Origin: Thermoanaerobaculia bacterium
GTDB lineage: Bacteria > Acidobacteriota > Thermoanaerobaculia > Multivoradales > J023
Assembly (NCBI GenBank): GCA_030431255.1
Contig: JAUIJL010000021.1
Span: 62,001 to 126,000, forward strand
Length of the DNA stretch: 64,000 nt
Direction: 5' to 3'
Below are positions 2,878-16,401 of the stretch, one piece after another. Numbering within the stretch: position 1 is the stretch's first letter; each line of letters starts with the position of its first letter. The notes beneath the pieces are model-generated. The model did no database searches, had not been told where the DNA came from, and saw only the letters and a list, made by a program, of their open reading frames with translations. A program made the translations under genes and the position numbers.

Positions 2878-4107
2878 ATGTCCAAACACGTTGTTTTCTT
2901 AGGTCCCGACCTCTTCTCCGCGTATGTCGACCTGGTCCGAGGTCTCAAACGCGCCGGCGTGCGGGTGACCGGCATCGGCCACACGCCGATCCAGAAGCTC
3001 GACCCGCGCCTGCACCGATATCTCGACGGCTACGAGCAGATCGCCAACACCATGGACGCCGGTCAGGTGCTGAAGGCCGTCCAGGTGATCGGACGTCGCG
3101 CGCCCGTGGATTTGCTCGAAACCGGTGACGAGTCGTTGGTGCTGTCCGCGGCTCAGGCCCGTCAAACCCTTGAGCTGCCCGGCTTGACCGTTCGGTCCGC
3201 CACCCTCTGCCGCGACAAGCCGGCGATGAAAGACGTGCTGCGCGAAGCCGGGGTGCCGACCGCGGCGTCCGCGGCGGTCAGCTCGTTGTCGGAGCTGCGG
3301 CAATTCGTGGAGCGGGAGGGCTTTCCCGTCATCCTCAAACCCAGGGCCGCCTTGGGCAGCTTGGGCACCCACCGGGCGGACAATGTGGCGGAGCTGGAGA
3401 AGGCCGCCAAAGCGCTCAAAGTCGATCAAGGCATGTCGACGGCGGTGGAAGAGTTCGTCGAAGGGCATGAAGGCTTCTACGACACCCTGTCGATCGACGG
3501 CAAACCGGTGCACGAATTCATCTCCCACTACTACCCGAATGTGCTGCCGGCCCTCGCGGATCGCCGGGTGGCGCCCCAGATCGCGGCCACCAATCGGGTC
3601 GAGTTGGAAAGCTACAACGAGCTGCGGGAGATGGGGCGGAAAGTCATCGAGGTCTTGGGCATCGGCACGTCGGCCACCCACATGGAGTGGTTCTTCGGGC
3701 CCAAGGGGCTCAAATTCTCGGAAATCGGCGCCCGCCCGCCCGGTGAGCGGATCTGGGATCTCTACTCGGTGGGCAACGACCTCAACCTGTGGACGGAATG
3801 GGCGATGATCATGGTTCACGGCCGACAAGCTTCGACTTTGAGCCGTCGGTTCGCCACCGGCTCGTTGCAGATCCGCCCGGATCGTGACGGTCGAATCGCC
3901 GGTTATGAGAATCTTCGACCGGTGATGAAGGCCTTGAGACCCTATCTTTTCGAGCATCGATTGCCGGTCCGCGGAACCCCGACGGATCCGATTTACAAAG
4001 GTTATTACAACAACGTTTGGTTCCGATTGAGGCACCCGGACTACGACGAGCTGTGCAAGCTGATGAGCTTCGCGGGAGATCACCTGCGCGTGCGCGCGGT
4101 GGCATGA
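2878..4107 (+). CDS. ATP-grasp ligase 1 (unknown substrate)
   Basis: A 409-residue ATP-grasp protein. This fold makes acyl-phosphates from carboxylates and joins them to amines. The N-terminal about 110 residues form a Rossmann-like pre-ATP-grasp domain. The nucleotide-binding lysine is in FPVILKPRAALGS (about 148-160), the central strand is VEEFVEGHE, and the metal segment is SEIGARPPGER (about 280), where the usual E-x-N-x-R asparagine is Gly. GGAG lies 8 nt before the ATG. It is the first gene of three ATP-grasp genes in tandem and the most divergent of them. L-amino-acid or peptide ligase activity is likely from fold and context; the substrate is unknown. Confidence 0.85.
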   Translation: MSKHVVFLGPDLFSAYVDLVRGLKRAGVRVTGIGHTPIQKLDPRLHRYLDGYEQIANTMDAGQVLKAVQVIGRRAPVDLLETGDESLVLSAAQARQTLELPGLTVRSATLCRDKPAMKDVLREAGVPTAASAAVSSLSELRQFVEREGFPVILKPRAALGSLGTHRADNVAELEKAAKALKVDQGMSTAVEEFVEGHEGFYDTLSIDGKPVHEFISHYYPNVLPALADRRVAPQIAATNRVELESYNELREMGRKVIEVLGIGTSATHMEWFFGPKGLKFSEIGARPPGERIWDLYSVGNDLNLWTEWAMIMVHGRQASTLSRRFATGSLQIRPDRDGRIAGYENLRPVMKALRPYLFEHRLPVRGTPTDPIYKGYYNNVWFRLRHPDYDELCKLMSFAGDHLRVRAVA

Positions 4108-4157: not shown

Positions 4158-5402
4158 ATGAGATATCTCTTACTCGATCCCATCGGCGATTACGCCGCCC
4201 GCCAGAAGACGTTTCTCGATCGCCTGCCGCTGGATGCCGTCGCGATTTTCTCCTCAAAGGCTCGATACGGGGCCTGGGAGCATAAGTGGAAGCACTCCTT
4301 GGGGCATCGCGTGGTGGACACTTTCCTCGCCGAAGAGGGCACCGACCTCAAAGCGCTGTGCGAGGAAATCGATCGGACCTATCCCGAAGGCTTTGCTGGC
4401 ATCGTGCCCTGGGACGAGCTGCACACCGTGTTGGCGGCGGAGATCTCGGAGCTGTTGGAGCTCAATTGGAACCCTAAGAAGGTGGTGGAGCGCTTTCGCG
4501 ACAAATACGTCATGAAAGACCGCCTGCGCCAGGTCGGCGGGGTACGGATCAACGCGTCGGCCATCGTGCACAATGCCCAAGAAGCAGAGGCTTTTCAAGA
4601 GCAAGTGGGAAGGTGGCCGATCGTGGTCAAACCCACGGGCGGAGCGGGATCCATGCAAGTGGTGGTGGCCCGCAGCCCCTCGGATCTGCTGCGCGGTTGC
4701 CAAGTGGTGCTCGAAGGGGGATGGGGCGGGGTGCTGCTGGAGGAATATATCGGCGGCCAAGAATTCGCGGTCAACGGCATCGTCGACCGAGACGGCGACT
4801 TTCTGCCCACCGACGTCTGGGCGTACGACAAGCGCGAAAGCCACGGCTTTTCCAACCTCTACTACCAGTCGATCAAAGTCTCCACGGACGAAGAGCCCTT
4901 CTGGCAGCTCGCCCGCTACGCCGCCGATGTGGTTTCCGCCTTGGGTCTTCGCCGGTCGCCGGTGCACATGGAGGTCAAAATCGACGACCAGGGCCCATGC
5001 TTGATCGAGGTCGGCGCCCGCATGGCCGGTGGCGATCAACCGGTGCTGGCGTCCAAGCTGCACCATCACAGCCTTTTTGAGCTGGCGGCTTGCCATTACC
5101 TCAGTGAGCTGCCGTCGTCGCCCCGGGATGTAGACTACGCCCACTACGATCATTACCAAGCGCGGATCGTCTCCGGCATCCAGACTTATGAGATCCCGAA
5201 GATTCGGGCGGTCTACGGACTGGACGAGATCCAGGAGCTGCCCTCCTTCGCGGGTATCGGTGCCCTGCGCCGACCCGGAGGCCGCGCGCCGGTCACCCAA
5301 GATCTCAACACGAAGTCCTACGAGATCTACTTGTTGCATCCCGACGGGCGGCAAGTGGAGCACGATCAGCAAATGGTCCGTCGCCTGTTGCGCTACGAGT
5401 GA
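4158..5402 (+). CDS. ATP-grasp ligase 2 (paralogue of the next gene)
   Basis: A 414-residue protein with an N-terminal preATP-grasp region and an ATP-grasp core. PIVVKPTGGAGS (about 153-164) carries the ATP-binding Lys, LLEEYIGGQEF (about 192) is the adenine-pocket strand, and LIEVGARMAGG (about 281) is the metal-binding strand. It aligns closely with the next protein along its whole length, including the identical LLEEYIGG and a shared YDKRESHG / YDRRESHG segment, so the two arose by duplication. It starts 50 bp after ATP-grasp 1 and ends 4 bp before ATP-grasp 3, so the three are almost certainly one transcript. No N-terminal signal or membrane segment is seen. Confidence 0.86.
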   Translation: MRYLLLDPIGDYAARQKTFLDRLPLDAVAIFSSKARYGAWEHKWKHSLGHRVVDTFLAEEGTDLKALCEEIDRTYPEGFAGIVPWDELHTVLAAEISELLELNWNPKKVVERFRDKYVMKDRLRQVGGVRINASAIVHNAQEAEAFQEQVGRWPIVVKPTGGAGSMQVVVARSPSDLLRGCQVVLEGGWGGVLLEEYIGGQEFAVNGIVDRDGDFLPTDVWAYDKRESHGFSNLYYQSIKVSTDEEPFWQLARYAADVVSALGLRRSPVHMEVKIDDQGPCLIEVGARMAGGDQPVLASKLHHHSLFELAACHYLSELPSSPRDVDYAHYDHYQARIVSGIQTYEIPKIRAVYGLDEIQELPSFAGIGALRRPGGRAPVTQDLNTKSYEIYLLHPDGRQVEHDQQMVRRLLRYE

Positions 5403-5406
5403 TGTT

Positions 5407-6645
5407 ATGACGTACGTGATTGTTGACCCTTGCGGGGAGTACCCTCGACATATCGTGGAATTTCTCGGCCGCACCGGCCGACAAGCCATCGCTGTGTTCA
5501 GCAGCCGAGGTCGCCACATGTTGTGGCGGAACAAATGGTCCCGCATCCTCGGTCGTCACGTGCTCGACACCTTTCCGGCCTACCTGGCTCCATCGCCGGA
5601 AATTCTGGCGGCCGCCATGGTGCGCAAGTGGTACCGCTTGGAGGGCATCATCGCTTGGGACGAGGAGACCGTGCGCCTTGGGGGAGCCCTGTCCGACCTC
5701 CTCGGCCTGGGTTGGAATTCCCGGGCGGTGATCGAGCGTTGCCGCGACAAAGCGGTGATGAAGGACTGGCTCCGACAACAGGGCACGGTGCGCATCAACA
5801 AAAGCGCGGTGGTGGAAGACGCGGCCGGTGCTACCGAGTTCCAGCGTTCCGTGGGCAAATGGCCCATCGTGGTCAAACCCACGGCCGGCTCCGGCTCGGA
5901 GAACGTCTTCTTCGCCCAGGACCGCGACGACCTGCTGAAATACTGCCAGCACGTGCTGACCCGCGGCTCGGGTGAGGTCCTGCTGGAGGAATATATCGGC
6001 GGCCACGAGGTGGTGATCGACGGCTTGGTGGATGGCAAAAGCGATCTTTTGATCACGGATGTTTGGATTTACGACCGTCGCGAAAGCCACGGCATCCCGA
6101 ATCTCTTCTACCAAACCTTCAAGGTGCACACCAGCGCGGCCATTTTTCACAGCGTGTCGAAATACGCCGGCGAGGTGGTGGAAGCCCTCAACCTGCGACG
6201 GGCGCCGATTCACATGGAAGTGAAAGTGGACGACGACGGCCCTTGCCTTATCGAGGTCGGTGCCCGGTTCGCCGGCGGCAGTCTGCCGATCCTGGCGTCC
6301 AAGCTGCACGGCCGCAGCATCTTGGAGCTGGCCGCCTGCCACTACATCGCCAACCTACCCCTGACCGGCGGCGACCTCGACTACAGCCGCTACGACCAAT
6401 TGGAGGCCAGGGTCCTGCACGGCGTGCAAGATCACGACATCCGTAGGATCAAAGCCGTGCACGGCGTGGAGGTCATGGAGCTGCCGTCCTTCGAAGGCTT
6501 CGGCGTCCTGCGCACCGCCGGCATGCGCGCTCCCATCACCCGCGACCTCGACTCCGCCGCCTGGGAGCTCTACCTGATCCACCAAGACCTGGGTCAAATC
6601 GAGCGCGACGCCCGCCTCGCCCGTCAGCTGCTCAAATACGAATAA
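5407..6645 (+). CDS. ATP-grasp ligase 3
   Basis: A 412-residue ATP-grasp enzyme. The frame is open well upstream, but ATG 5407 gives an N-terminus (MTYVIVDPCGEYPRH) that matches the start of ATP-grasp 2, so this start is chosen. Core motifs are PIVVKPTAGSGS (about 152), LLEEYIGGHEV (about 190) and LIEVGARFAGG (about 280). A hairpin follows directly after the stop. It converges with the minus-strand micropeptide gene 54 bp away. With two paralogous ligases and one divergent one, stepwise or substrate-specific peptide or amino-acid ligation is a reasonable guess, but the reaction cannot be read from sequence. Confidence 0.86.
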   Translation: MTYVIVDPCGEYPRHIVEFLGRTGRQAIAVFSSRGRHMLWRNKWSRILGRHVLDTFPAYLAPSPEILAAAMVRKWYRLEGIIAWDEETVRLGGALSDLLGLGWNSRAVIERCRDKAVMKDWLRQQGTVRINKSAVVEDAAGATEFQRSVGKWPIVVKPTAGSGSENVFFAQDRDDLLKYCQHVLTRGSGEVLLEEYIGGHEVVIDGLVDGKSDLLITDVWIYDRRESHGIPNLFYQTFKVHTSAAIFHSVSKYAGEVVEALNLRRAPIHMEVKVDDDGPCLIEVGARFAGGSLPILASKLHGRSILELAACHYIANLPLTGGDLDYSRYDQLEARVLHGVQDHDIRRIKAVHGVEVMELPSFEGFGVLRTAGMRAPITRDLDSAAWELYLIHQDLGQIERDARLARQLLKYE

Positions 6646-6668
6646 CGGACGGAGCCGAGCCCCGTCCG
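6646..6668 (+). terminator. Hairpin after ATP-grasp operon
   Basis: A 7-bp stem (CGGACGG with CCGTCCG) begins at the base after the TAA of ATP-grasp 3. Only a weak T-rich stretch follows, so it is a possible rather than a firm terminator. Confidence 0.4.
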
Positions 6669-6698
6669 CGCCTAACATTTAAGGCTGGATCCGCCGGA

Positions 6699-6761
6699 TC
6701 AGCCTCCACCTTGCCAAGGATATTCGTTCGGTCCGGCTTGGATGTGGGTCGTGACGTTCAT
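6699..6761 (-). CDS. 20-residue peptide gene, candidate RiPP-like or tag precursor
   Basis: The minus strand has AAGGAG, a 5-nt spacer, then an ATG opening a 20-codon frame: MNVTTHIQAGPNEYPWQGGG, stop TGA. The ribosome site is as good as any in this window. The peptide has no Cys, Ser or Lys. It ends in Trp-Gln and three Gly, the flexible tail expected of a ligation substrate or tag. It sits 105 nt after the SpoIIE phosphatase on the same strand and faces three ATP-grasp ligases, which suggests it is their substrate. A 13-bp palindrome (GGCCAC-T-GTGGCC, 6792-6804) lies upstream. Expression and function are unproven; a chance frame is the alternative. Confidence 0.62.
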   Translation of the reverse strand: MNVTTHIQAGPNEYPWQGGG

Positions 6762-6791
6762 GATCTCTCCTTGAGGTCAGTCCTTATTCTG

Positions 6792-6804
6792 GGCCACTGT
6801 GGCC
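6792..6804. promoter_or_regulatory. 13-bp palindrome upstream of the micropeptide gene
   Basis: GGCCAC-T-GTGGCC is a perfect 6-bp inverted repeat around one base, 31 bp before the peptide ATG and 62 bp after the phosphatase stop. It could be an operator giving the peptide gene its own control. No clear -35/-10 pair was found. Confidence 0.3.
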
Positions 6805-6865
6805 AAAGATGGATACGAGCTCGAGAGGCCTGGGTTGCCGATCAGCCTTTATTCATCAGCCTCCA

Positions 6866-7642
6866 CTAATCAGCTTTTAGGATGATGATCGTTTGATCGT
6901 CGCTCCTCTCGCTTTCCAAACCGGCGAGGTAGTGGATCAAGGCTTCGAGGTTGTCGGCGGCGCTGCCTTGGGAGTGCTCGGCGAGAATTTGCTCGATGCT
7001 CGGGGCGACCCACGCGTCCAGGCGCTTGCGAAAGATTTCTTGGCCGTCGTGGTCGATCCGCTCGGTGACGCCGTCGGTGAAGAGGGCGAGGGTGTCGCCC
7101 TTTCGCAGGTCGATGGTTTTGAGCACAAAGCGGCTGCTTCGGCCCACGGGAATGGAGATTCCGGGAATGCGGAAGGTGGAGGAGTGGTAGAAACGAATTT
7201 TCTTGTTGGAGTTGTGAAAGACGATCGGCTCGATTTTGCCACCTTGCACGTAAATGAACTTACGGTCGAAGGGTAGGTAAATGCCCACTAAAACCTCGGC
7301 GTACTTTGCGTCGTCGGAAAACTTGCGCAAGGAATCGTCGAGCTGCGCCATGATGTGTGGCAAACGCTCGTGATTCTTGAGTCGGGCTCGGATTTCGGCC
7401 AAGGCGTAGACCATCAACAGGGCGGCGTTATAGCCTTTTCCTGAAATATCCCCCAGGGTAATGCCCAGGCTTCCTTCTTCCAGGGGCGTGAAATCGTAAA
7501 AGTCGCCGCCCACTGGGGCAAAGGGCTGCCAGGAGACCGCCAAGTCGATGGCTTCCATATCGGGAGGTTCCTGTAACAGCCGGCTTTGGACCTCGAAGGC
7601 GGCTTGGGCGGCGGCGGAGAGTTGGGTTGCGGCATCGGTCAT
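6866..7642 (-). CDS. SpoIIE/RsbU-type PP2C phosphatase
   Basis: A 258-residue stand-alone PPM/PP2C (SpoIIE-like) Ser/Thr phosphatase. Metal-binding motifs are complete: VGGDFYDF, GDISGKG, LFTDGVTE and DDQTIIIL. The ATG at 7642 overlaps the stop of the receiver-TIR gene as ATGA, which fixes the start and implies translational coupling, although the frame stays open further upstream. Such phosphatases usually act on phospho-Ser anti-sigma antagonists. No STAS or anti-sigma partner is adjacent here, so it may instead reset a component of this operon. Predicted cytoplasmic. Confidence 0.9.
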   Translation of the reverse strand: MTDAATQLSAAAQAAFEVQSRLLQEPPDMEAIDLAVSWQPFAPVGGDFYDFTPLEEGSLGITLGDISGKGYNAALLMVYALAEIRARLKNHERLPHIMAQLDDSLRKFSDDAKYAEVLVGIYLPFDRKFIYVQGGKIEPIVFHNSNKKIRFYHSSTFRIPGISIPVGRSSRFVLKTIDLRKGDTLALFTDGVTERIDHDGQEIFRKRLDAWVAPSIEQILAEHSQGSAADNLEALIHYLAGLESERSDDQTIIILKAD

Positions 7643-8511
7643 GGCTTGAGCATTCCTGCCTCGGTGAGATCGCGCCGGAGCTCCGGCACGCATTCGGATA
7701 CATTTTTGGTGAATTGCCTCTGCACCACACCGGCGAAGTCGGAAAAGATCGAGGTGCCGCTCTTGAGCAAGAGGGTGACCCGGGGACGGCCGAAATAACC
7801 GCAGAACCAACCCAGCTCCCAAATAGCGTTCGGTCTGGCTTGGAGATAGACGTCTCCGTCGGGCGACCGGACCTCGTCTTCCGGAGTGAAGATCGCGATG
7901 GCATAGGCGCAGCCGCAGGCGTGTTTTTCGAAATTCTCGATGAGCGTGGGGCTGCCGGCCAGGGATTGCTCCTCGAGCACGACCGGGGTCAGGCCGAATT
8001 CGCTTTTGATCAGAGCTTGCAGCTCTCGCCATTTGGCCTCCCCCCGGCCATGGATGATCAACACTTTGTCGGAGTGGGGGCGAGGACCCACTTGCGGGAA
8101 GCTTCCAGTTTCCAGCCCCGAGCCCAGCCCGAGGGCTCGATCCAGGGCCAGCTTGAAGGTTCTGGGAAGCTCTTCGATCTCCCTTTTGTCCATCACCTCG
8201 GTGACGAACGGGAAGTGTGCTTTCAGCTCCTTGGTGCCGGGGCGATGCCCGAGGGTGCTGATGATGATCACGCCGGGTGGGTGATCGATCCGGTTGCGGA
8301 TCGATTCGAGCAACAATCGACCTTCGGTTTGGCCCTTGAGATCCATATCGATGATCGCAACGTCGTAGTTGTTTTTCTTGATCATGCGCCAGGCTTGCTG
8401 TCGATGGTCGGCAAAATCCAGCTCGGCGTCGATCATGGTGTCGAAGAACTCTGCAACTTTTTTGGCGTCCTTTTCATCGTCGTCGACGATGAGAATCGAA
8501 TAGGGCATCAC
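7639..8511 (-). CDS. Response-regulator receiver fused to a TIR-like domain
   Basis: A 290-residue two-domain protein. Residues 1-about 125 form a phosphoreceiver (acidic triad VDDD at 9-12, likely phospho-acceptor Asp55 in VAIIDMD). Residues about 149-265 match the predicted nucleotide-binding TIR-like family PF10137: LIIHGRGE, VVLEEQ, IENFE, IFTPED, ARPNAIWELGWF and GRPRVTLLLK. Relatives occur as effectors of CBASS/Pycsar-type antiphage systems and can cleave NAD. Here the sensing domain is a receiver, so phosphorylation by the operon kinase would be the switch. Overlaps the phosphatase by ATGA and follows the second receiver protein by 84 bp. NADase activity is inferred. Confidence 0.86.
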   Translation of the reverse strand: MMPYSILIVDDDEKDAKKVAEFFDTMIDAELDFADHRQQAWRMIKKNNYDVAIIDMDLKGQTEGRLLLESIRNRIDHPPGVIIISTLGHRPGTKELKAHFPFVTEVMDKREIEELPRTFKLALDRALGLGSGLETGSFPQVGPRPHSDKVLIIHGRGEAKWRELQALIKSEFGLTPVVLEEQSLAGSPTLIENFEKHACGCAYAIAIFTPEDEVRSPDGDVYLQARPNAIWELGWFCGYFGRPRVTLLLKSGTSIFSDFAGVVQRQFTKNVSECVPELRRDLTEAGMLKP

Positions 8512-8595
8512 ATCATCCTCGGTCCCCGGGGCTTCTCGGCCTCGGCATAGAAAGAAAGTCGGGCTTCTCCGTCGTGGGCCGATGGTGCTGAGGAA

Positions 8596-9369
8596 TCAGC
8601 AACAATAGGCATCGCGCGGGTCCGACGTCTTGAGGGTGGTGGCCTCGATTTGATGGGATTGGCGGGTCTGTAAGACCTCACCGTCGACCGGCTCACCGTC
8701 GGCTTTGGCCAACACCAAGCGGATCGCCGAGCCGATGGCTTTGCTCCACAGATTGAATTCCACTCGACCATGGTCGGCGTCGATGGACAGCAGCAGCTCG
8801 GGATCCTCATGGGGACGCAAAGGGCAGAGGGAGCGCAGGCTGTTGTCCACCAGCTCGCGGACCGCGGGGAATCCCCGTTCCAAGGCGGTGAGGATTTCGT
8901 GAATCGCCACGTCTTGATCCAAACCGTGGAGGGCGGCGGAAAGCGGGTAACCATGATCCTGAAAGATCTTCAGCTCAGCCCGCTCCGCCTGCTCGGCGAT
9001 GGCTTGGATGAATTCCTCGGGCTCGAATTGACCCTTGCGAAGGTATTTGCTCAGGTTTTGTTCTTCGTAGCCCTTGATGGCGATATCCAAAGCGGGGTCG
9101 CCGCCTTTTTGCGACACGATGATGATCCGTGTGCCTTCTTTGTGTTTAGAGATTTCACGCAACACGTCCTGGCCTTGGTAGTTGGATGGATCCGCCTCCT
9201 CCAGGCCGAGGTCGACGCAGGCGACATGAAAGGTTTTTTTGTGGACGATGTCGGCGGCTTCCGTCAGGCTGGAGGCTTCGGAAACTTCGAAGTCGTGTAG
9301 CTCGAGGGTGTCCCGATAGGCTTCGCGGGTGGAGGCGATGTCTTCAACCAACAGAATTCTTTTTTTCAT
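8596..9369 (-). CDS. Response regulator with uncharacterised C-terminal domain
   Basis: A 257-residue protein. The receiver (about 1-125) has VED at 8-10, phospho-acceptor Asp53 in VACVDLGLEEAD, and the conserved Lys in YLRKGQ. The C-terminal about 130 residues resemble no output domain I recognise: no helix-turn-helix and no enzyme motif, with a helical stretch (VAIHEILTALERGFPAVREL) then a beta-rich part, ending DPRDAYCC. The start is ATG 9369, with GAGG 9 nt upstream; an in-frame upstream extension lacks receiver homology. It lies 77 bp after the kinase in the same direction. Confidence 0.85.
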   Translation of the reverse strand: MKKRILLVEDIASTREAYRDTLELHDFEVSEASSLTEAADIVHKKTFHVACVDLGLEEADPSNYQGQDVLREISKHKEGTRIIIVSQKGGDPALDIAIKGYEEQNLSKYLRKGQFEPEEFIQAIAEQAERAELKIFQDHGYPLSAALHGLDQDVAIHEILTALERGFPAVRELVDNSLRSLCPLRPHEDPELLLSIDADHGRVEFNLWSKAIGSAIRLVLAKADGEPVDGEVLQTRQSHQIEATTLKTSDPRDAYCC

Positions 9370-9446
9370 CGTGTACCTCGATAAGCGGCGTGGACAGTTA
9401 TGGATTCGGAGGTCGGTGCTCAATGGGGCCCAACGATCTCTTCTCT

Positions 9447-11354
9447 TTAAGACTCGTGAATGGATTGCTCGCGCAAAGGCTCGGGGGCTGCCTGAGCCGT
9501 TTCGGGATAGACGAGCAGATCGATGATCACAGCGCAGAATTCCCCTTCGTCGGAATCGATGTCCAGGCTGCCCCCTTGTCGTTGCACGTAGTCGCGGGCC
9601 GCGGGAAGCCCGTAGCCGGAGGTTCGGGTGGTGGAGAAACCGGGGATGAATACCTTTTGTTGGTTTTCTTTCGGAATCCCTAGACCGTTGTCCCGAATGG
9701 TCAGCCGGACCCTCTGGTTGAGCTTGGCCACTTGGTCGCCGTCACGATCCTCGACCCCTCCCTTTTGGCTGATGGTGTGTTTTTTCGCGGTGATGACGAT
9801 GGCGGGTCGATAGCCGTCGTCAATGCGATCCGCTTTGCGCTCAATGCTGCGCACGGCGTTGATGATGATGTTGCGAATATGCTCTTTGAGCAGCCGAGAC
9901 GCCCGAACCCTGGGCATGGATCGGAGCTCGTCGTCGATGCGTAAATACCGCTCGGCGATCGCTTTTTCCTCTTTATAGATTTCGCTGATGAGCTCACCGA
10001 CGTCGATCTTGCCGTCATGGGCGATGACCGGCAGGCTGTCCCAGAGCTCACGCAGGGAGGAGTCGATCCAGCTGAAGTCGCCGGAGATTTTGGTGATTCG
10101 AGAGCTGACCGTCTCACTGGGGGAGCCCAACGAGAGCTTGAGGTTGTAGAGCTCGAATTTGATGGCGTCGATTCGGGAGGCGAATTTGTGGGCGTAGAGG
10201 TTGCTCAGGTTGTAAAGGTAGCTGCTGAGGGCATAGTGGTCGGCGGTACGGCTCTGGTTGTTCAGGGCGTTGCGGTCGCGGATGGCGACGATGATCGGCG
10301 AGACGATCTCCACCAATTCGATGACACTCTTGACCTGCTCCTGCGTGAAGGCGTTGACCGCCGAGCTTTCGATGTTGACCACACCGATGGCCCGGGAGCT
10401 CTTGTCTCGGCGGATCAGCACCACCAACTCGGTTCGGGTGTGGAAATCGCTGAAGTTCTTGTAGATCGATGCGTAATGCGAGCTGCGGGGGTTGTCGAGC
10501 AAATGTCCCTCGGAGCGATCGATGGCCATGCCGCAGAAGGAATCCCCGGGCACGAAGGCTCCGATGTCCTCCGGATTGCTCGAAAGGCGTATTCGCAGCC
10601 GGTCGTCGGGGCTGTCGTGCTCCTCGCCGAAGGCGTTTTTCGGCTCGGATGACGGGATCTCCGAGTCGGAGGCGCGAAAGAGGATTTGGAAGAGCAGCTT
10701 TCCCGAGTGCTCTTCGAAAAGACTTCGGGTGTTCTCGAAGAGAATGCGCAGGCATTCGTCCTCGCCCAAGGCCTCATTGAAAAAAGCGCTGTGAATCTCG
10801 CGATATTGTTGAACTTGATTGCGGTCGGTGTAGTTTTGGATGGCCACCTGCAGCTGCTGAGCCACGGTGAGAATGTACCGTCTCGCCAGGGCCTTGGGGT
10901 TGGAACGGCCGAATTCGAAAAGCAGCACACCCCAGAGCTCGTCCTTGCTCTTGAGGCGGACAGGGATCATGGAGCGTTTGTGACTGTCGCAAAGCTTGAA
11001 TAACCACTTGGCCTCGTCCGACCGTAGCGGCTCCCCGTCCCGGCTTTGCTCCATCTTGGCTTCCGGGAAGGTTCGTTTGGGAGCATTCGTCAACGGCGCT
11101 TCGGTGCCGGCGACATAGGATCGCGTGAGGACCAAATGATCTTCGTGCTTGCGACAAAGGTGGGCCCGTCCGGCGCCGGCGAGCTCGAGAAGCTCGGGGA
11201 TGGTGGCATCGAGAATCTCTATCGGGGTTCTCGAGCCGTCGAGGATGTGGTGATCGATGGACCTCAGCAACGCGACGTGTCGATCGTGCTCTTCGAGATG
11301 CTGGTACAGCTGGTCGATGAGCCCTTCCCAACGCTTGGTGACTTGAGGACGCAT
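9447..11354 (-). CDS. GAF-domain sensor histidine kinase
   Basis: A 635-residue soluble sensor kinase with no membrane segment. Two GAF-like regions (about 60-190 and 210-385) precede a DHp-like helix with the candidate phospho-accepting His in NLYAHKFASRI (about 430). A GHKL ATPase follows: N box NIIINAVRSIE, G1 DNGLGIP and G2 GYGLPAARDYV. The ATG at 11354 has a textbook AGGAGG 5 nt away (minus strand AAAGGAGGCATC-ATG). It heads the operon kinase, receiver, receiver-TIR, phosphatase, micropeptide. Two receivers downstream are the obvious phosphotransfer partners. The DHp is atypical for HisKA. Confidence 0.9.
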   Translation of the reverse strand: MRPQVTKRWEGLIDQLYQHLEEHDRHVALLRSIDHHILDGSRTPIEILDATIPELLELAGAGRAHLCRKHEDHLVLTRSYVAGTEAPLTNAPKRTFPEAKMEQSRDGEPLRSDEAKWLFKLCDSHKRSMIPVRLKSKDELWGVLLFEFGRSNPKALARRYILTVAQQLQVAIQNYTDRNQVQQYREIHSAFFNEALGEDECLRILFENTRSLFEEHSGKLLFQILFRASDSEIPSSEPKNAFGEEHDSPDDRLRIRLSSNPEDIGAFVPGDSFCGMAIDRSEGHLLDNPRSSHYASIYKNFSDFHTRTELVVLIRRDKSSRAIGVVNIESSAVNAFTQEQVKSVIELVEIVSPIIVAIRDRNALNNQSRTADHYALSSYLYNLSNLYAHKFASRIDAIKFELYNLKLSLGSPSETVSSRITKISGDFSWIDSSLRELWDSLPVIAHDGKIDVGELISEIYKEEKAIAERYLRIDDELRSMPRVRASRLLKEHIRNIIINAVRSIERKADRIDDGYRPAIVITAKKHTISQKGGVEDRDGDQVAKLNQRVRLTIRDNGLGIPKENQQKVFIPGFSTTRTSGYGLPAARDYVQRQGGSLDIDSDEGEFCAVIIDLLVYPETAQAAPEPLREQSIHES

Positions 11355-12148: not shown

Positions 12149-15100
12149 ATGAAGCAAAACGACTGTGGATCCTTCATCCGACGCTTGGGGGCGTGGGTGG
12201 GTTTGGCCGCGCTCTTCACCGTCGGCATGACCGGCCAGGCTGCGCCCGTGGAGCCGGGGGAGACGGCGGCGCCGGAGCGCGAGGAGCAAGTCCGGCCTCT
12301 AGCCACCGGCGAGCGCTTCGAAAGCGACATTTCCATCGATGAGCGCCACGTCTTCTCATTGCCGGACGGCCCCGAGGATCTGTGGTGGCGGGTGGTGGTC
12401 GAGCAGCAGGGCATCGACGTATGGGTCCAAACCCGAGAGAACGGGGCAGCGGTCGACTCCCTCAACCACTACCGAGATCGCTTTGAGCGAGAGATATTCC
12501 GGGTTCCAAGCACAGCCGATGCCCTGACGATTCAGCCCGTGTCCGGGGCCGAGCCGTCCGGCCGATACGCGATCGAGCTCCAGCTGCCGATTGACGAGGC
12601 GCCCGCCCGCTTGAGCATCGAGCGTCGATTGACCGAAGCGGCGAAAGTCGCCCACGGGGCCGAAAGCCCGGCCTTACGCCGGGCGGCCGAGCTCTATGAA
12701 GCGGTGGCCGACGAGCTGAAGTCAGCGGAGATCGCGGCGGCATTCGACCGTCCCGAGGCGGAGCGGGCGAAGGCCCTATTCAGCGCCGCTAACCACCGCC
12801 GGGTGCTCGGCGACGCGGAACAAGCGGCCCGGCTTTATGGCCGATCCGCTGAAATTTGGCGCCGCCTCGACGATCCGGGATGGCTGGCGGCCAGCCTGCT
12901 GGGTTTGGGGCAAAGCGAGCGCAAGAGCGGCCATCCGGAAAGGGCCCGTTCCTCCCTGGAAGAGGCCATGTTGACCTGGCCGCTTGCCGACTCGCGGGAT
13001 GCGGAGACGGCCCACACCCTGACCAGCCTGGGCTTGATCGCCCACGTGGACGGGGACTATCCGCTGGCTCTCGAGCACTACGGCCAGGCTCTCGAGCTCC
13101 ACCGGCAAGCCGGTCGGGAGCGGGAGCAAGCCCGCCTGTTGAATAACATCAGCAATGTGCAGTCTCGAATGGGTGTCGCATCCTCGGCCTTGGAGGACCA
13201 GCTGAAATCGGTGGAGATTTTTCGCCGATTGGGGGATCGGCGCAACGAGATGGGTGCGCTCAACAATCTGGCGGATCTATATCGCCGCATGGCCGATCCA
13301 GAAGCAGCCCTGCGGGCTTTCGATCAGGTCGGAGATTTGGCGAACGAATTGGGCGACGCTCGATGGCAAGGGCGAGCCCTGAACCATCGGGGCATCACCT
13401 ACTTGGGGATGGGCTCTTCGGACCGCGCCGTCCAGGATTTGGAAGCCGCCCTGAAGCTGAGGCGAGCCACCGGGGATCTCCGAGGAGAGCTTTTCACGCT
13501 GTCGAATCTCGGCGACGCGGAATTCCATCGCGGCAACCTGGAACGAGCCCGCGGCTACTGGCGTGATGCGTTGGACCTCGAGATGGAAGGTGAAGGTCGT
13601 CGCCTGGCATTGATTCAGGCCAGGTGGGCAAGGGTGGAAGCCCTGCTCGGCGAGCCCGGGGCGGAAGCCGACGCCGAATCCTCGCTCATGACGGCGTCCG
13701 AGCTGGATACGACCTTTGATCGATCCTTGGACCTGCTCACTGGGCGCGGCGACGGCGAAGGCGAGGCCCAAGCACACTTTCTGCGCGCGGAAGCGGAGCT
13801 CAGTCGGGCCCGGCTGGCAGCGGCGGCCGGCTCGGCGGCACGCGCCGCTGAAAAATGGCGAGAGCTGAAGAACCCTCAGGGAGAAATGCTGGCCTTGTTG
13901 ACCCTGGGCAAGATCGCGCGGAGCGAGCGGGATTGGATGGCGGCGAGTCGCTATTTTGAGCAAGCTATTCAGCTGACCGAATCGGGACGGGCGAGCCTTT
14001 CCAACCCGAGCCTGAGAGCCGCGTATCTGGCCTCCAGGCGCGAGGTATACGAGCTCCAGCTCCAAACGTTGGTGGATTTGCATGGCCGGCAGCCTCGGGG
14101 TGGGTTTCTTCAAGCTGCGGTAGAGCTGAGCGAGCGCGCTCGCAGTCGTTGGTTGTTGGACCTGGTGATCGAAGCCCGAAGCGGCACGGAACGTCCGATC
14201 GCCGGAATCATGGAACGTCGAAGATCGCTGATGTCTCGGCTCGGGCTGTTGGTTCGTCGCCAGGAGCTCGTTGCGCTCGGCCATCGACGGGATTTGCCGA
14301 ACGAGAATCTGCCCGCCGCGATTGCCGATCTGCGGGCGGAGCTCGACTTGATCGACGCCGAGGTCAGTCTGGAAACGGCTCGTGGCGTTCCCCTCCAGAC
14401 GGGGCCGAAGTCCCTGAGCATCGGCGACATCAGGGCTCTTCTCGATCAGGAGACCGTGCTTCTTCAATATTCCATCGGTCGGGATGCGGGTCATTTGGTG
14501 ATGATGGACGCGCAAGGAGAATCCCACTTCCAGCTTCCGGGTCGGGAAGTGATCGAGTCCCTCGCGACCCGAGCTCATCGCGCCCTGGCCACGGTCGGGG
14601 GGGCGGCCTCCGGTTGCGAGGGGCCGATCACCGAGCTGAGCCAGGCGATCCTAGGCGACGGTTTGGCGCGCGTGGAGGGCAAGCGGTTGGCGATTCTTCC
14701 CGACGGCGCGCTCCATTTCGTACCCTTTGCCGCGCTGTGTTTGCCCGGAGATGGAGCCCGGGGCGGAGCGAAGCGGTTGGTGGATCGATTCGAGAGCGTG
14801 CGGCTGGCCTCCGCGGCGGTTTTAGTCGCGGATCGTCGGTCGGCGGCGGATCGTGTGTGGCAGCCGGAGCGTCAGTCTTTGGTGGTGGTCGCCGATCCGG
14901 TCTTTGATCGCCGTGATGTCCGATTCGATAGCGACGGCGAGCAGGAAGCGGTCGCCGGACCGGCATCCGCGATCCAAAACGCGTTGCCGATCGCATTGAC
15001 CCGTGGAGCAGGCCAGGCTCCCGCGGTCTTCGGGCGGCTTCCCGGAAGCCGCCGAGAAGCGGAGGTGATCTCGGCCCATCTGCCGGCGGAACGCATCGAG

Positions 15101-15607
15101 CTGGCGTTGGACTTTAGTGCCAGTCGAGATGCCGTGGAGCAGGCTTTGAGCAAGCGGTCGGTCATCCACTTCGCCACCCACGGGTTGATCGACACCCAAT
15201 TCCCGGAGCTCTCAGGCCTCGTGCTGTCGCAATTTCATCCCGATGGTCGACGGCGGGGGGACGGTTTTCTTCGCGTTTACGACATCTTCGAGCTCGAATT
15301 AGACGCCGAGCTGGTGGTGCTTTCGGGTTGCGGCACGGCCCTCGGCAAACGTCTGCGCGGAGAGTCCTTTCAGGGGCTCACCAGCGCCTTCGTGCATGCG
15401 GGTGCCAGGCGTGTCCTCGCCAGCTTGTGGCCGATCGCCGATCGGGCAACCGCCGAGCTGATGGACCACTTCTACCGCGCTCTATGGGTCGAGGGCTTGG
15501 CCCCGCCTGCGGCCCTGCGCCGGGCTCAGCTGGAGATGCTCCAGGACCGGAGGTTTCGCGATCCCTACTATTGGGCGGGTTTTGTGTTGCAGGGGGATTG
15601 GCGTTGA
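12149..15607 (+). CDS. Exported TPR-CHAT protein (caspase/separase-like protease)
   Basis: A 1152-residue protein from ATG 12149. That start exposes a signal peptide: RRLG, hydrophobic WVGLAALFTVGM, then a site near GQAAP. A GTG 81 bp earlier is in frame but would bury it. Residues about 190-700 are TPR repeats (for example ALEHYGQALELHRQAG). The C-terminal CHAT domain has the clan CD dyad: His1011 in IHFATHG and Cys1061 in VVLSGCGTALG. CHAT proteins are caspase-like peptidases. The probable protease substrate or partner is the small protein 158 bp downstream. The genes that follow (sigma, anti-sigma, kinase) suggest it belongs to an envelope-signalling module. Confidence 0.9.
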   Translation: MKQNDCGSFIRRLGAWVGLAALFTVGMTGQAAPVEPGETAAPEREEQVRPLATGERFESDISIDERHVFSLPDGPEDLWWRVVVEQQGIDVWVQTRENGAAVDSLNHYRDRFEREIFRVPSTADALTIQPVSGAEPSGRYAIELQLPIDEAPARLSIERRLTEAAKVAHGAESPALRRAAELYEAVADELKSAEIAAAFDRPEAERAKALFSAANHRRVLGDAEQAARLYGRSAEIWRRLDDPGWLAASLLGLGQSERKSGHPERARSSLEEAMLTWPLADSRDAETAHTLTSLGLIAHVDGDYPLALEHYGQALELHRQAGREREQARLLNNISNVQSRMGVASSALEDQLKSVEIFRRLGDRRNEMGALNNLADLYRRMADPEAALRAFDQVGDLANELGDARWQGRALNHRGITYLGMGSSDRAVQDLEAALKLRRATGDLRGELFTLSNLGDAEFHRGNLERARGYWRDALDLEMEGEGRRLALIQARWARVEALLGEPGAEADAESSLMTASELDTTFDRSLDLLTGRGDGEGEAQAHFLRAEAELSRARLAAAAGSAARAAEKWRELKNPQGEMLALLTLGKIARSERDWMAASRYFEQAIQLTESGRASLSNPSLRAAYLASRREVYELQLQTLVDLHGRQPRGGFLQAAVELSERARSRWLLDLVIEARSGTERPIAGIMERRRSLMSRLGLLVRRQELVALGHRRDLPNENLPAAIADLRAELDLIDAEVSLETARGVPLQTGPKSLSIGDIRALLDQETVLLQYSIGRDAGHLVMMDAQGESHFQLPGREVIESLATRAHRALATVGGAASGCEGPITELSQAILGDGLARVEGKRLAILPDGALHFVPFAALCLPGDGARGGAKRLVDRFESVRLASAAVLVADRRSAADRVWQPERQSLVVVADPVFDRRDVRFDSDGEQEAVAGPASAIQNALPIALTRGAGQAPAVFGRLPGSRREAEVISAHLPAERIELALDFSASRDAVEQALSKRSVIHFATHGLIDTQFPELSGLVLSQFHPDGRRRGDGFLRVYDIFELELDAELVVLSGCGTALGKRLRGESFQGLTSAFVHAGARRVLASLWPIADRATAELMDHFYRALWVEGLAPPAALRRAQLEMLQDRRFRDPYYWAGFVLQGDWR

Positions 15608-15765: not shown

Positions 15766-16401
15766 ATGAGTCAGAACACAGCTAGTGAGCTTTGGGCAAG
15801 CAGCTCGGCCGATTTCATCGACACCTGGAATCTCGAAAATCCCGGTGGATTTGTGATCTCCGCGGGATCTCAATCCGGTGTGCTCGATGTAGACGTCACC
15901 AATGCCCGAGGGTTGAAAAATCAGACCTACGAAGGTGTTTATGACGGGACCAACACCCAGATCAAGATCACTTTCGCGCTCCAGGCGGACGGGTTGGACG
16001 GGGGCCAACGGAAGCTCTCCTATGTGCAGCCGGTGGATGGGGAAGCGGCCCAAACCGCCTCGAGCCCGGCGTCCGGCCGACACACCGCGGGCTGGGGCAG
16101 TGATCTCCAGGACTTCGAAGGCACGTGGGATTTCTCCAACGGCGGAGAGCTGATCATCATGAACGGCTCTCAGGTCCAAGCAACCGGAGTCGACGGTCTA
16201 AAAGATGGTGTGTTTCAAGGTGTTTTCGACAGCACCGCGAAGGAAATCACGATCACCTTCTTTCTGGCCGACAATGGCTATGTGGGCGGCAACACGGCCA
16301 ATCCCAAAGAGATACTCTTCACATATCCGGAAATCTTTCTCACCGAGGGTCAATCCATTCCTTCGGAGGGAGAGCTCTTCGAAGCAGAAGGTGGGGGCTA
16401 G
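15766..16401 (+). CDS. Unrecognised protein with an internal domain duplication, C-terminal GGG
   Basis: A 211-residue protein without signal peptide or membrane segment. Two halves (about 16-70 and 115-165) share the pattern TW(N/D)-x-GG-x-I-x-GSQ ... GLK(N/D) ... (Y/F)-x-GV(Y/F)D ... I-x-ITF-x-L, so it is a tandem duplication of a roughly 55-residue beta-rich unit joined by a Ser/Ala/Gly linker. The tail is acidic and ends FEAEGGG. AGGAG precedes the ATG. It lies between the CHAT gene and the sigma factor in one direction, so it may be the CHAT client or a sensor. I know no family for it. Confidence 0.75.
   Translation: MSQNTASELWASSSADFIDTWNLENPGGFVISAGSQSGVLDVDVTNARGLKNQTYEGVYDGTNTQIKITFALQADGLDGGQRKLSYVQPVDGEAAQTASSPASGRHTAGWGSDLQDFEGTWDFSNGGELIIMNGSQVQATGVDGLKDGVFQGVFDSTAKEITITFFLADNGYVGGNTANPKEILFTYPEIFLTEGQSIPSEGELFEAEGGG

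Follow-up and report, generated by a model that had tools for sequence, protein, structure and literature searches.

The stretch of DNA analysed here (hereafter the window, 64,000 nucleotides) raises the question of whether a frame of only 20 codons, lying between three ATP-grasp genes and a set of signalling genes, is a real gene, and, if so, which proteins its product works with. An earlier note, made from the letters alone, had proposed a hidden precursor gene at 6699-6761, and the proposal was followed up in the own genome, in related genomes and across species.

The peptide gene and its surroundings

The minus-strand frame from 6761 to 6699 reads ATG AAC GTC ACG ACC CAC ATC CAA GCC GGA CCG AAC GAA TAT CCT TGG CAA GGT GGA GGC TGA. 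Its position and strand, the AAGGAG placed 5 nt before the ATG and its orientation, convergent on three plus-strand ATP-grasp genes, are all as the earlier note described them. The features of the region are the following:

2878-4107, 4158-5402 and 5407-6645, plus strand: three ATP-grasp genes (Pfam ATP-grasp), neighbours outside the peptide system
6645..6669, minus strand: terminator-like hairpin and T-rich tail, separating the peptide gene from the ATP-grasp gene that converges on it
6683..6704, minus strand: short inverted repeat overlapping the stop codon (from the sequence)
6699..6761, minus strand: precursor peptide gene, MNVTTHIQAGPNEYPWQGGG plus stop (from the sequence and family searches)
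6702..6731, minus strand: core PNEYPWQGGG, predicted secreted product after a putative cleavage
6732..6761, minus strand: decapeptide leader MNVTTHIQAG, the part common to the peptide family
6767..6772, minus strand: Shine-Dalgarno AAGGAG, 5 nt (AGATC) ahead of the ATG
6866..11354, minus strand: signalling genes (GAF/HATPase sensor, receiver protein, receiver-TIR fusion, SpoIIE phosphatase)

The inverted repeat, GGCTGATCC-GGC-GGATCCAGCC from 6704 to 6683, probably corresponds to the "two arms" mentioned in the earlier note, and its fold is not exceptional (z -0.98). The hairpin at 6669-6645 is one of three terminator-like hairpins in the region, for 0.4 expected. A search for a sigma-70-like promoter in 6600-6960 found none. 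The peptide gene lies about 100 bases beyond the signalling set on the same strand, the last gene of which encodes the SpoIIE phosphatase, and co-transcription with these genes is possible. Nine ATG ORFs of 14 to 45 residues with GGAG at 4-9 nt were counted in the window, two of them outside the genes called by a simple gene caller. The window peptide had no match in Pfam, NCBIfam or PHROGs and no hit in the PDB.

Other genes of the window deserve mention. The minus-strand gene at 7639-8508, flanked by those of the receiver protein and the SpoIIE phosphatase, encodes a response-regulator receiver domain fused to a CAP12/Pycsar-type TIR domain (PF10137; PADLOC PDC-S35 match, E 6.8e-31), an unusual tie between two-component signalling and a defence-type effector domain. 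A TPR-CHAT protein (12149-15607, plus strand) is followed by a 211-aa protein (15766-16401, plus strand) without Pfam match and with the C-terminus EAEGGG. The tRNA-Pro called by ARAGORN at 5648-5733 (plus strand), within the third ATP-grasp gene, is probably a false positive.

A family of peptides with a common decapeptide

A protein search of the own genome returned seven matches. One is the ORF itself; four are short ORFs related to it, of which three form a tandem on contig C15 and one lies on C1; the last two (L004 and L007) are chance matches. The related peptides share the decapeptide M-x-[VI]-x-T-x-[LVI]-x-A-G ahead of unrelated tails. This leader pattern, without any ribosome-site requirement, had seven exact matches in the own genome (five in a stricter form); profile and patterns together gave a family of eight, and the looser form of a pattern combining ribosome site and motif a family of eleven. 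Loose profile searches mixed true members and chance matches, and it was the ribosome-site-plus-motif pattern that separated them. GGAG was required when collecting the family, and the eight own-genome members found without this requirement also carry it. About 0.5 matches per genome are expected by chance (20 Mb of Markov sequence gave a single match) versus eleven observed, and the reversed-pattern control gave none in all seven genomes of the bacterial family.

The own-genome members, with a slash at the proposed cut, are the window peptide MNVTTHIQAG/PNEYPWQGGG, MNVETHLKAG/PADVPCPACPILPNPDQDDGGGG with its two tandem relatives, MHVTTHLQAG/PGSSFCPSCPIHPSP, MNVTTHLRAG/DGDNSQDDDSGHENVARFNVE, MQVSTHLKAG/DYDNDNLDDTPMDIHK, MKVVTQLTAG/PIFTVRPKSGGG, MVIKTQVKAG/DVTVPACDGSSKEAGY, MNVQTTVIAG/LPGLIIPNG and MRITTSLKAG/NGNQVQPVTPPPSEIVGAIDPNG. 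Strong hairpins, scored without a shuffle control, stand just 3' of several copies, which suggests that these are separate transcription units. Within the bacterial family, 11 peptides were found in the own genome (G000), 10 in G003 and 13 in G006, and the ribosome-site-plus-motif pattern found no peptide in G001, G002, G004 and G005. Some cores are common to G003 and G006 (e.g. FDLEDY and (D/N)GDSGGPMTGG), so that conservation between species extends from the leaders to the cores. The PNEYPWQG of the window core recurs in a G003 homologue, and peptides of G003 and G006 are identical to ones in Acidobacteriota records, which makes an origin of the window in this phylum probable.

Several observations were made alongside. 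Peptides of 19 residues with tails near GxGPxxDPxG form a sub-family in G003 and G006 (L198, L200, L204, L206, L209, L218, L219, L221, L224 and L225), with loose relatives in G000 on C29 and C35. In the own genome, a radical SAM-like protein (by eye; L041:17015-18663) adjoins a 60-aa ORF with a cysteine-bearing C-terminus, and the two genes resemble another precursor pair. Two candidates were rejected: L043 in G107, which matched the first pattern, is by eye a longer membrane-type protein, and L035 on C17, one mismatch off, overlaps a called gene on the opposite strand.

The scan of one genome per species with the stricter ribosome-site-plus-leader pattern gave 91 stretches; 80 of these were read, yielding 103 ORFs, and 72 loci were kept. 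The eight loci set aside (L079, L081, L089, L106, L110, L116, L122, L134) were removed on the sole criterion of a long ORF without leader repeat; by a rough arithmetic, about five chance matches are expected, which is close to this number. A few of the kept loci, such as L091 and L144, may be chance matches, and L106 may be a real family member. At this last locus (L106:7401-8000), the perfect leader MKVRTHVKAG heads an open frame that extends over 200 residues or more and shows, by eye, membrane-type segments; the frame runs off the stretch and lies on the same contig as the L117 family peptide.

By record title, the 72 kept loci belong to Acidobacteriota, Proteobacteria, Chloroflexi, Planctomycetes, Myxococcota and others. 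The peptides are mostly 15 to 60 residues long, with two or more copies at many loci, and what follows AG mostly bears no relation from one peptide to the next: examples are NHNQ repeats with the leader recurring inside them, ...PVYVPPVSRCVGI, poly-glycine, GCGSGGCMHAA and FNPQPEPPGRR. The codon analysis covered 121 distinct leader DNAs, that is, 119 distinct peptides of at most 120 residues. Several residue classes of the leader were imposed by the search pattern, and conservation there is therefore not evidence. The leader is nevertheless under selection at the protein level, with residues and not nucleotides conserved: Thr5 is written ACA in 25, ACT in 17, ACC in 51 and ACG in 28 leader DNAs, all four codons are used for both Ala9 and Gly10, and residue 4, left free by the pattern, is Lys in 72 of the 119 peptides (Thr in the window).

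None of the five own peptides tested matched NCBIfam, and seven others gave weak unrelated matches only, with no nitrile-hydratase-like or Nif11-like model; in Pfam, NCBIfam and PHROGs, other family members likewise showed only weak, unrelated matches. Two family peptides searched in plasmids had no match. The motif strings occurred in none of the papers of the open-licence literature, where no description of the decapeptide-leader family was found among the matches listed (title and start of abstract). The decapeptide-leader peptides are a widespread, unnamed and undescribed family of tiny bacterial peptides, and the 20-codon ORF is a real gene. The existence of this family in many genomes bears out the view that the frame is a hidden, precursor-like gene of the kind that gene finders miss; the statement that it has no matching leader was wrong, the first ten residues being that leader.

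The neighbouring ATP-grasp genes

The peptide had also been read as a RiPP-like precursor with the ATP-grasp enzymes as partners and a tail suited to C-terminal ligation. The precursor-like gene stood, and the ATP-grasp link fell, as the distributions of peptides and ATP-grasp genes disagree. With the middle ATP-grasp protein as query in 12 genomes, the sister species G001 was the one genome besides the own to give matches. It holds two homologues (63% and 53% identity) and, together with them, a third gene, which by eye corresponds to the first ATP-grasp. No peptide was found anywhere in the G001 genome, and its contig runs 309 bases past the last gene, enough to cover the position of the own-genome peptide; the peptide is thus absent beside orthologous ATP-grasp genes, an outcome that the earlier note had named as refuting its reading and that here refutes the ATP-grasp link. 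Also, at a threshold of E <= 1e-15 the ATP-grasp query matched nothing in G003 and G006, which have 23 peptides (the neighbourhoods of 5 of which were read), and the ten other peptides of the own genome stand in other contexts. The ATP-grasp partnership was rejected on this distribution.

As in graspetides, a short hidden precursor lies near ATP-grasp genes. Graspetide leaders carry a Phhx(1,2)h motif (PMC8939145); unlike them, the window peptide has no such motif by eye, no Thr/Ser acceptor in its core and no conserved linkage. PNEYPWQGGG contains one Glu and no Thr or Ser, which holds only if residues 1-10 are the leader, and the precursor is not conserved beside the orthologous ATP-grasp genes. 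On these sequence comparisons, the linkage also argues against a substrate of a pheganomycin-type ATP-grasp ligase.

A C39 exporter as candidate partner

Clustering of the called genes around the peptides yielded a protein of ~900 aa that combines a C39 peptidase domain at its N-terminus with an ABC ATPase, together with a HlyD-type adaptor and a second ABC protein of ~710 aa. When the 72 loci were searched by tblastn with the own-genome proteins, C39 was found at 16, HlyD at 13 and the second ABC protein at 9, some of these last matches being possibly generic. At least one exporter part was present at 21 of the 72 loci and at none of the eight set aside. It counts against a partnership that 51 of the 72 peptide loci showed no exporter part, in a stretch of at most 8 kb. 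The clustering also returned kinase-like genes (9 loci) and sigma-factor-like genes (7 loci), named by eye. Such genes also lie near L040 and L041 of the own genome and elsewhere in the window, and were therefore treated as background; a regulatory link to the peptides could still exist.

In the seven genomes of the bacterial family, searched with a Steroidobacter protein, the C39 exporter was detected in exactly G000, G003 and G006, and G001, G002, G004 and G005 gave matches at the level of generic ABC proteins only (best E 9.6e-37). Exporter and peptides are found in the same three of seven genomes, an agreement of 1 in 35 by chance, which genome size could confound as these three are the largest of the seven. 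Among 396 genomes of the phylum, the strict peptide pattern occurred in two and the exporter (E <= 1e-60) in eleven including both, an overlap of ~7e-4 by chance, assuming that both searches covered the same 396; the absence of the strict pattern from nine of the eleven exporter genomes counts against the link.

The own exporter lies at C50:380544-383465, in a cassette (L192) composed of HlyD, C39-ABC and second ABC. No peptide was found in the 20 kb read there, which also counts against the link, and the exporter must therefore act in trans, if it acts. Outside the bacterial family, a leader-like short ORF accompanies four of the nine exporter regions read, out of ten (G012, G022, G263 and, in looser form, G290), the peptide of G012 being ~1.5 kb from the exporter; the five others, which had no leader-like ORF by the filter used, weigh on the other side. 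The plasmid search with the exporter gave one match, in Piscinibacter, and the stretch read there held no leader motif.

Residues 1-172 of the own exporter match the protease domains of the PCAT1 (best E 6.8e-10), ComA and LahT structures. Cys33, His113 and Asp135, invariant in 12 of 12 aligned exporters, align with the known catalytic positions of these structures and would form a putative Cys-His-Asp triad. The cassette resembles NHLM (TIGR03796, TIGR03797, TIGR03794), at scores under those models' limits: the Steroidobacter exporter reached 192 bits versus an NCBIfam NHLM cut-off of 853.3, and the cassette proteins of L078, L099, L118 and L124 fell far below the NCBIfam cut-offs.

Comparison with known systems

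Precursors of the NHLP/Nif11 type (N11P) go with a cassette of HlyD, C39-ABC and ABC, according to a 2010 paper (PMC2887384). The present peptides resemble them by a conserved leader, a hypervariable core and several precursors per genome, by precursors sometimes far from the cassette and by a correlation, across genomes, with an exporter of three genes composed in the same way. Unlike NHLP/N11P, the leader has 10 residues, is not nitrile-hydratase- or Nif11-like by NCBIfam and ends in the cut motif AG; the scanned cassette proteins, despite the same three-part make-up, were below the NCBIfam cut-offs, and no TOMM or lanthionine enzyme was recognised among the shared neighbours examined. The logic matches the one described for the NHLP/Nif11 families and the cassette that serves them; the leader differs from theirs and is far shorter.

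According to another report (PMC6363468), LahT recognises the last 13 leader residues, which were shown to be sufficient, and PCAT/AMS leaders end in GG, GA or GS, with a role for Leu at -12 and for the residues at -8/-7. Like PCAT1, ComA and LahT, the present exporter joins a C39 peptidase to an ABC exporter and has a conserved putative Cys-His-Asp triad; a linked C39-ABC exporter with the triad is found at the family level (16 of 72 loci), the own genome being unlinked. Unlike PCAT leaders, the window peptide and 119 of 119 family peptides end their leader in Ala-Gly, a count to be read with the AG requirement of the pattern, by which any GG relatives would have been missed. Also, there is no position -12, and position -7 (residue 4) is mostly Lys, Thr in the window; the family leader is hydrophobic at -8 and -4. 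As the two classical leader features tested were not found, we regard the decapeptide family as a variant of C39-exported peptides and state more firmly that it works like them than that it is a member.

Some loci hold a further protein. A protein of ~600 aa lies near the peptide at 16 of the 72 loci (e.g. L078:4562-6418), in the vicinity of SRCVGI-type and some other peptides of Proteobacteria, and had no Pfam or NCBIfam match. In its predicted model (mean pLDDT 82.6), the N-terminal part resembles winged helices (MINA53, prob 1.00; McbB, 0.96; PbtF RRE, 0.84), all with E above 0.1. These loci may be likened to RRE-containing RiPP systems through weak RRE-like N-terminal matches of a model, and differ from them in that no known domain was recognised in the protein; the model hints at a modification of the core there. 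At L149:1992-3209, a methyltransferase whose ~100 N-terminal residues look by eye like those of the ~600-aa protein adjoins a peptide ending in SRCAGL.

Possible likeness of some cores to trypsin-type proteases

The G003 homologue of the window peptide, MKVDTPIRAG/IVGGSEATPNEYPWQG, gave 21 PDB hits, all of them trypsin-family (S1) proteases and 14 of them forms of factor IX, individually weak (E 0.088-1.8). Seventeen of the 21 align from residue 11, which in 15 of these 17 meets residue 1 of the chain; residues 11-25 match mature trypsin-type N-termini, which places the core start right after AG. Two further cores carry GDSGGP, the S1 active-site serine motif; when searched, one of these peptides gave two hits at E 3.5-4 and the other none, so that they are suggestive only. 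A search of G000, G001, G003 and G006 with PF00089 gave 31 matches, and no IVGG...PWQ protein was found at the 30 of these loci that were read. A trypsin-like protein as source of the PWQ core was rejected on this ground. With the weak GDSGGP support, no IVGG...PWQ protein and no hit for the window peptide, mimicry of S1 proteases by the cores is a lead and not a result.

If the mimicry were real, IVGGSEATPNEYPWQG would imitate the mature N-terminus, GDSGGP the active-site serine loop, and PNEYPWQGGG would be a shortened version; outside the cell, such cores would have S1 proteases, or the inhibitors of these, as targets. A secretion system shared across phyla, with one ten-residue tag, many unrelated cores and a single exporter in trans, some cores mimicking S1 proteases, is in our opinion a speculative and rather unlikely extension of the data. 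To our knowledge, the ten-residue tag would be the shortest C39 leader.

Proposed mechanism and alternative explanations

Gene family, leader selection, genome co-occurrence, exporter linkage in other species and the conserved putative triad form the observed basis on which we consider it quite probable that a C39 exporter, encoded elsewhere, takes MNVTTHIQAG as a minimal leader and cuts it off behind Ala-Gly, releasing PNEYPWQGGG. From this basis we infer recognition of the leader, cleavage after AG, export and an extracellular role in antagonism or signalling. The exporter would consist of the C39-peptidase ABC protein, the HlyD-type adaptor and the second ABC protein, and would bind the decapeptide through Val/Ile at -8, Thr at -6 and a hydrophobic residue at -4. 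Its C39 domain would cut after Ala-Gly, and the core PNEYPWQGGG would leave through HlyD and an outer-membrane channel to act outside the cell, by antagonism or signalling. The exporter of contig C50 would in this way serve at least 11 scattered precursors in trans. It counts against this mechanism that the leader ends in AG and not in GG, GA or GS, and that it is shorter than the 13 residues sufficient for LahT.

A second reading is a real family of secreted peptides in which the C39 domain makes no cut after AG, the decapeptide serving only for docking or being taken off by a different protease: the AG departs from the classical double-glycine site, and the leader is too short to have positions -12 and -11. 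We hold this to be improbable given that the putative C39 triad is invariant in all 12 exporters, that the tails become mostly unrelated after AG and that the trypsin-like sequence of the G003 peptide begins right there. A graspetide- or pheganomycin-like RiPP, ligated or cyclised by the ATP-grasp enzymes whose three genes adjoin the peptide gene, is very unlikely, since the ATP-grasp homologues of G001 occur without any peptide, and the peptides of G003 and G006 in genomes where the ATP-grasp query found no match. Also, the proposed core is devoid of Thr and Ser, though the leader has two Thr, and the gene is convergent to the ligases instead of in an operon with them.

The small size of the ORF, its strong ribosome site and the adjoining hairpins could also point to a regulatory frame (an attenuator or a leader peptide) that controls one of its neighbours in cis. 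It is hard to reconcile such a role with own-genome loci that share no immediate neighbour except sigma-factor- and kinase-type genes common in the genome, with conservation at residues and not nucleotides, with tandem copies and with the co-occurrence with the exporter, and we give it very little credit. That the frame is a mere chance ORF, as its 20 codons might suggest, is refuted by the 72-locus family and by an own-genome count above the Markov expectation, and has a next to negligible probability.

Significance of the peptide family

Release of the core by a C39 exporter thus remains our preferred reading. An entire class of exported peptides seems to have gone unnoticed, since its genes are shorter than those that are usually annotated and may stand at a distance from the exporter. 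Because the leader is fixed, members can be looked for in any genome, and they are the likely substrates of orphan C39 exporters. The decapeptide would also provide a portable tag for secretion, and a very short one. The likeness of one core to a mature trypsin-type N-terminus is an unusual lead to function.
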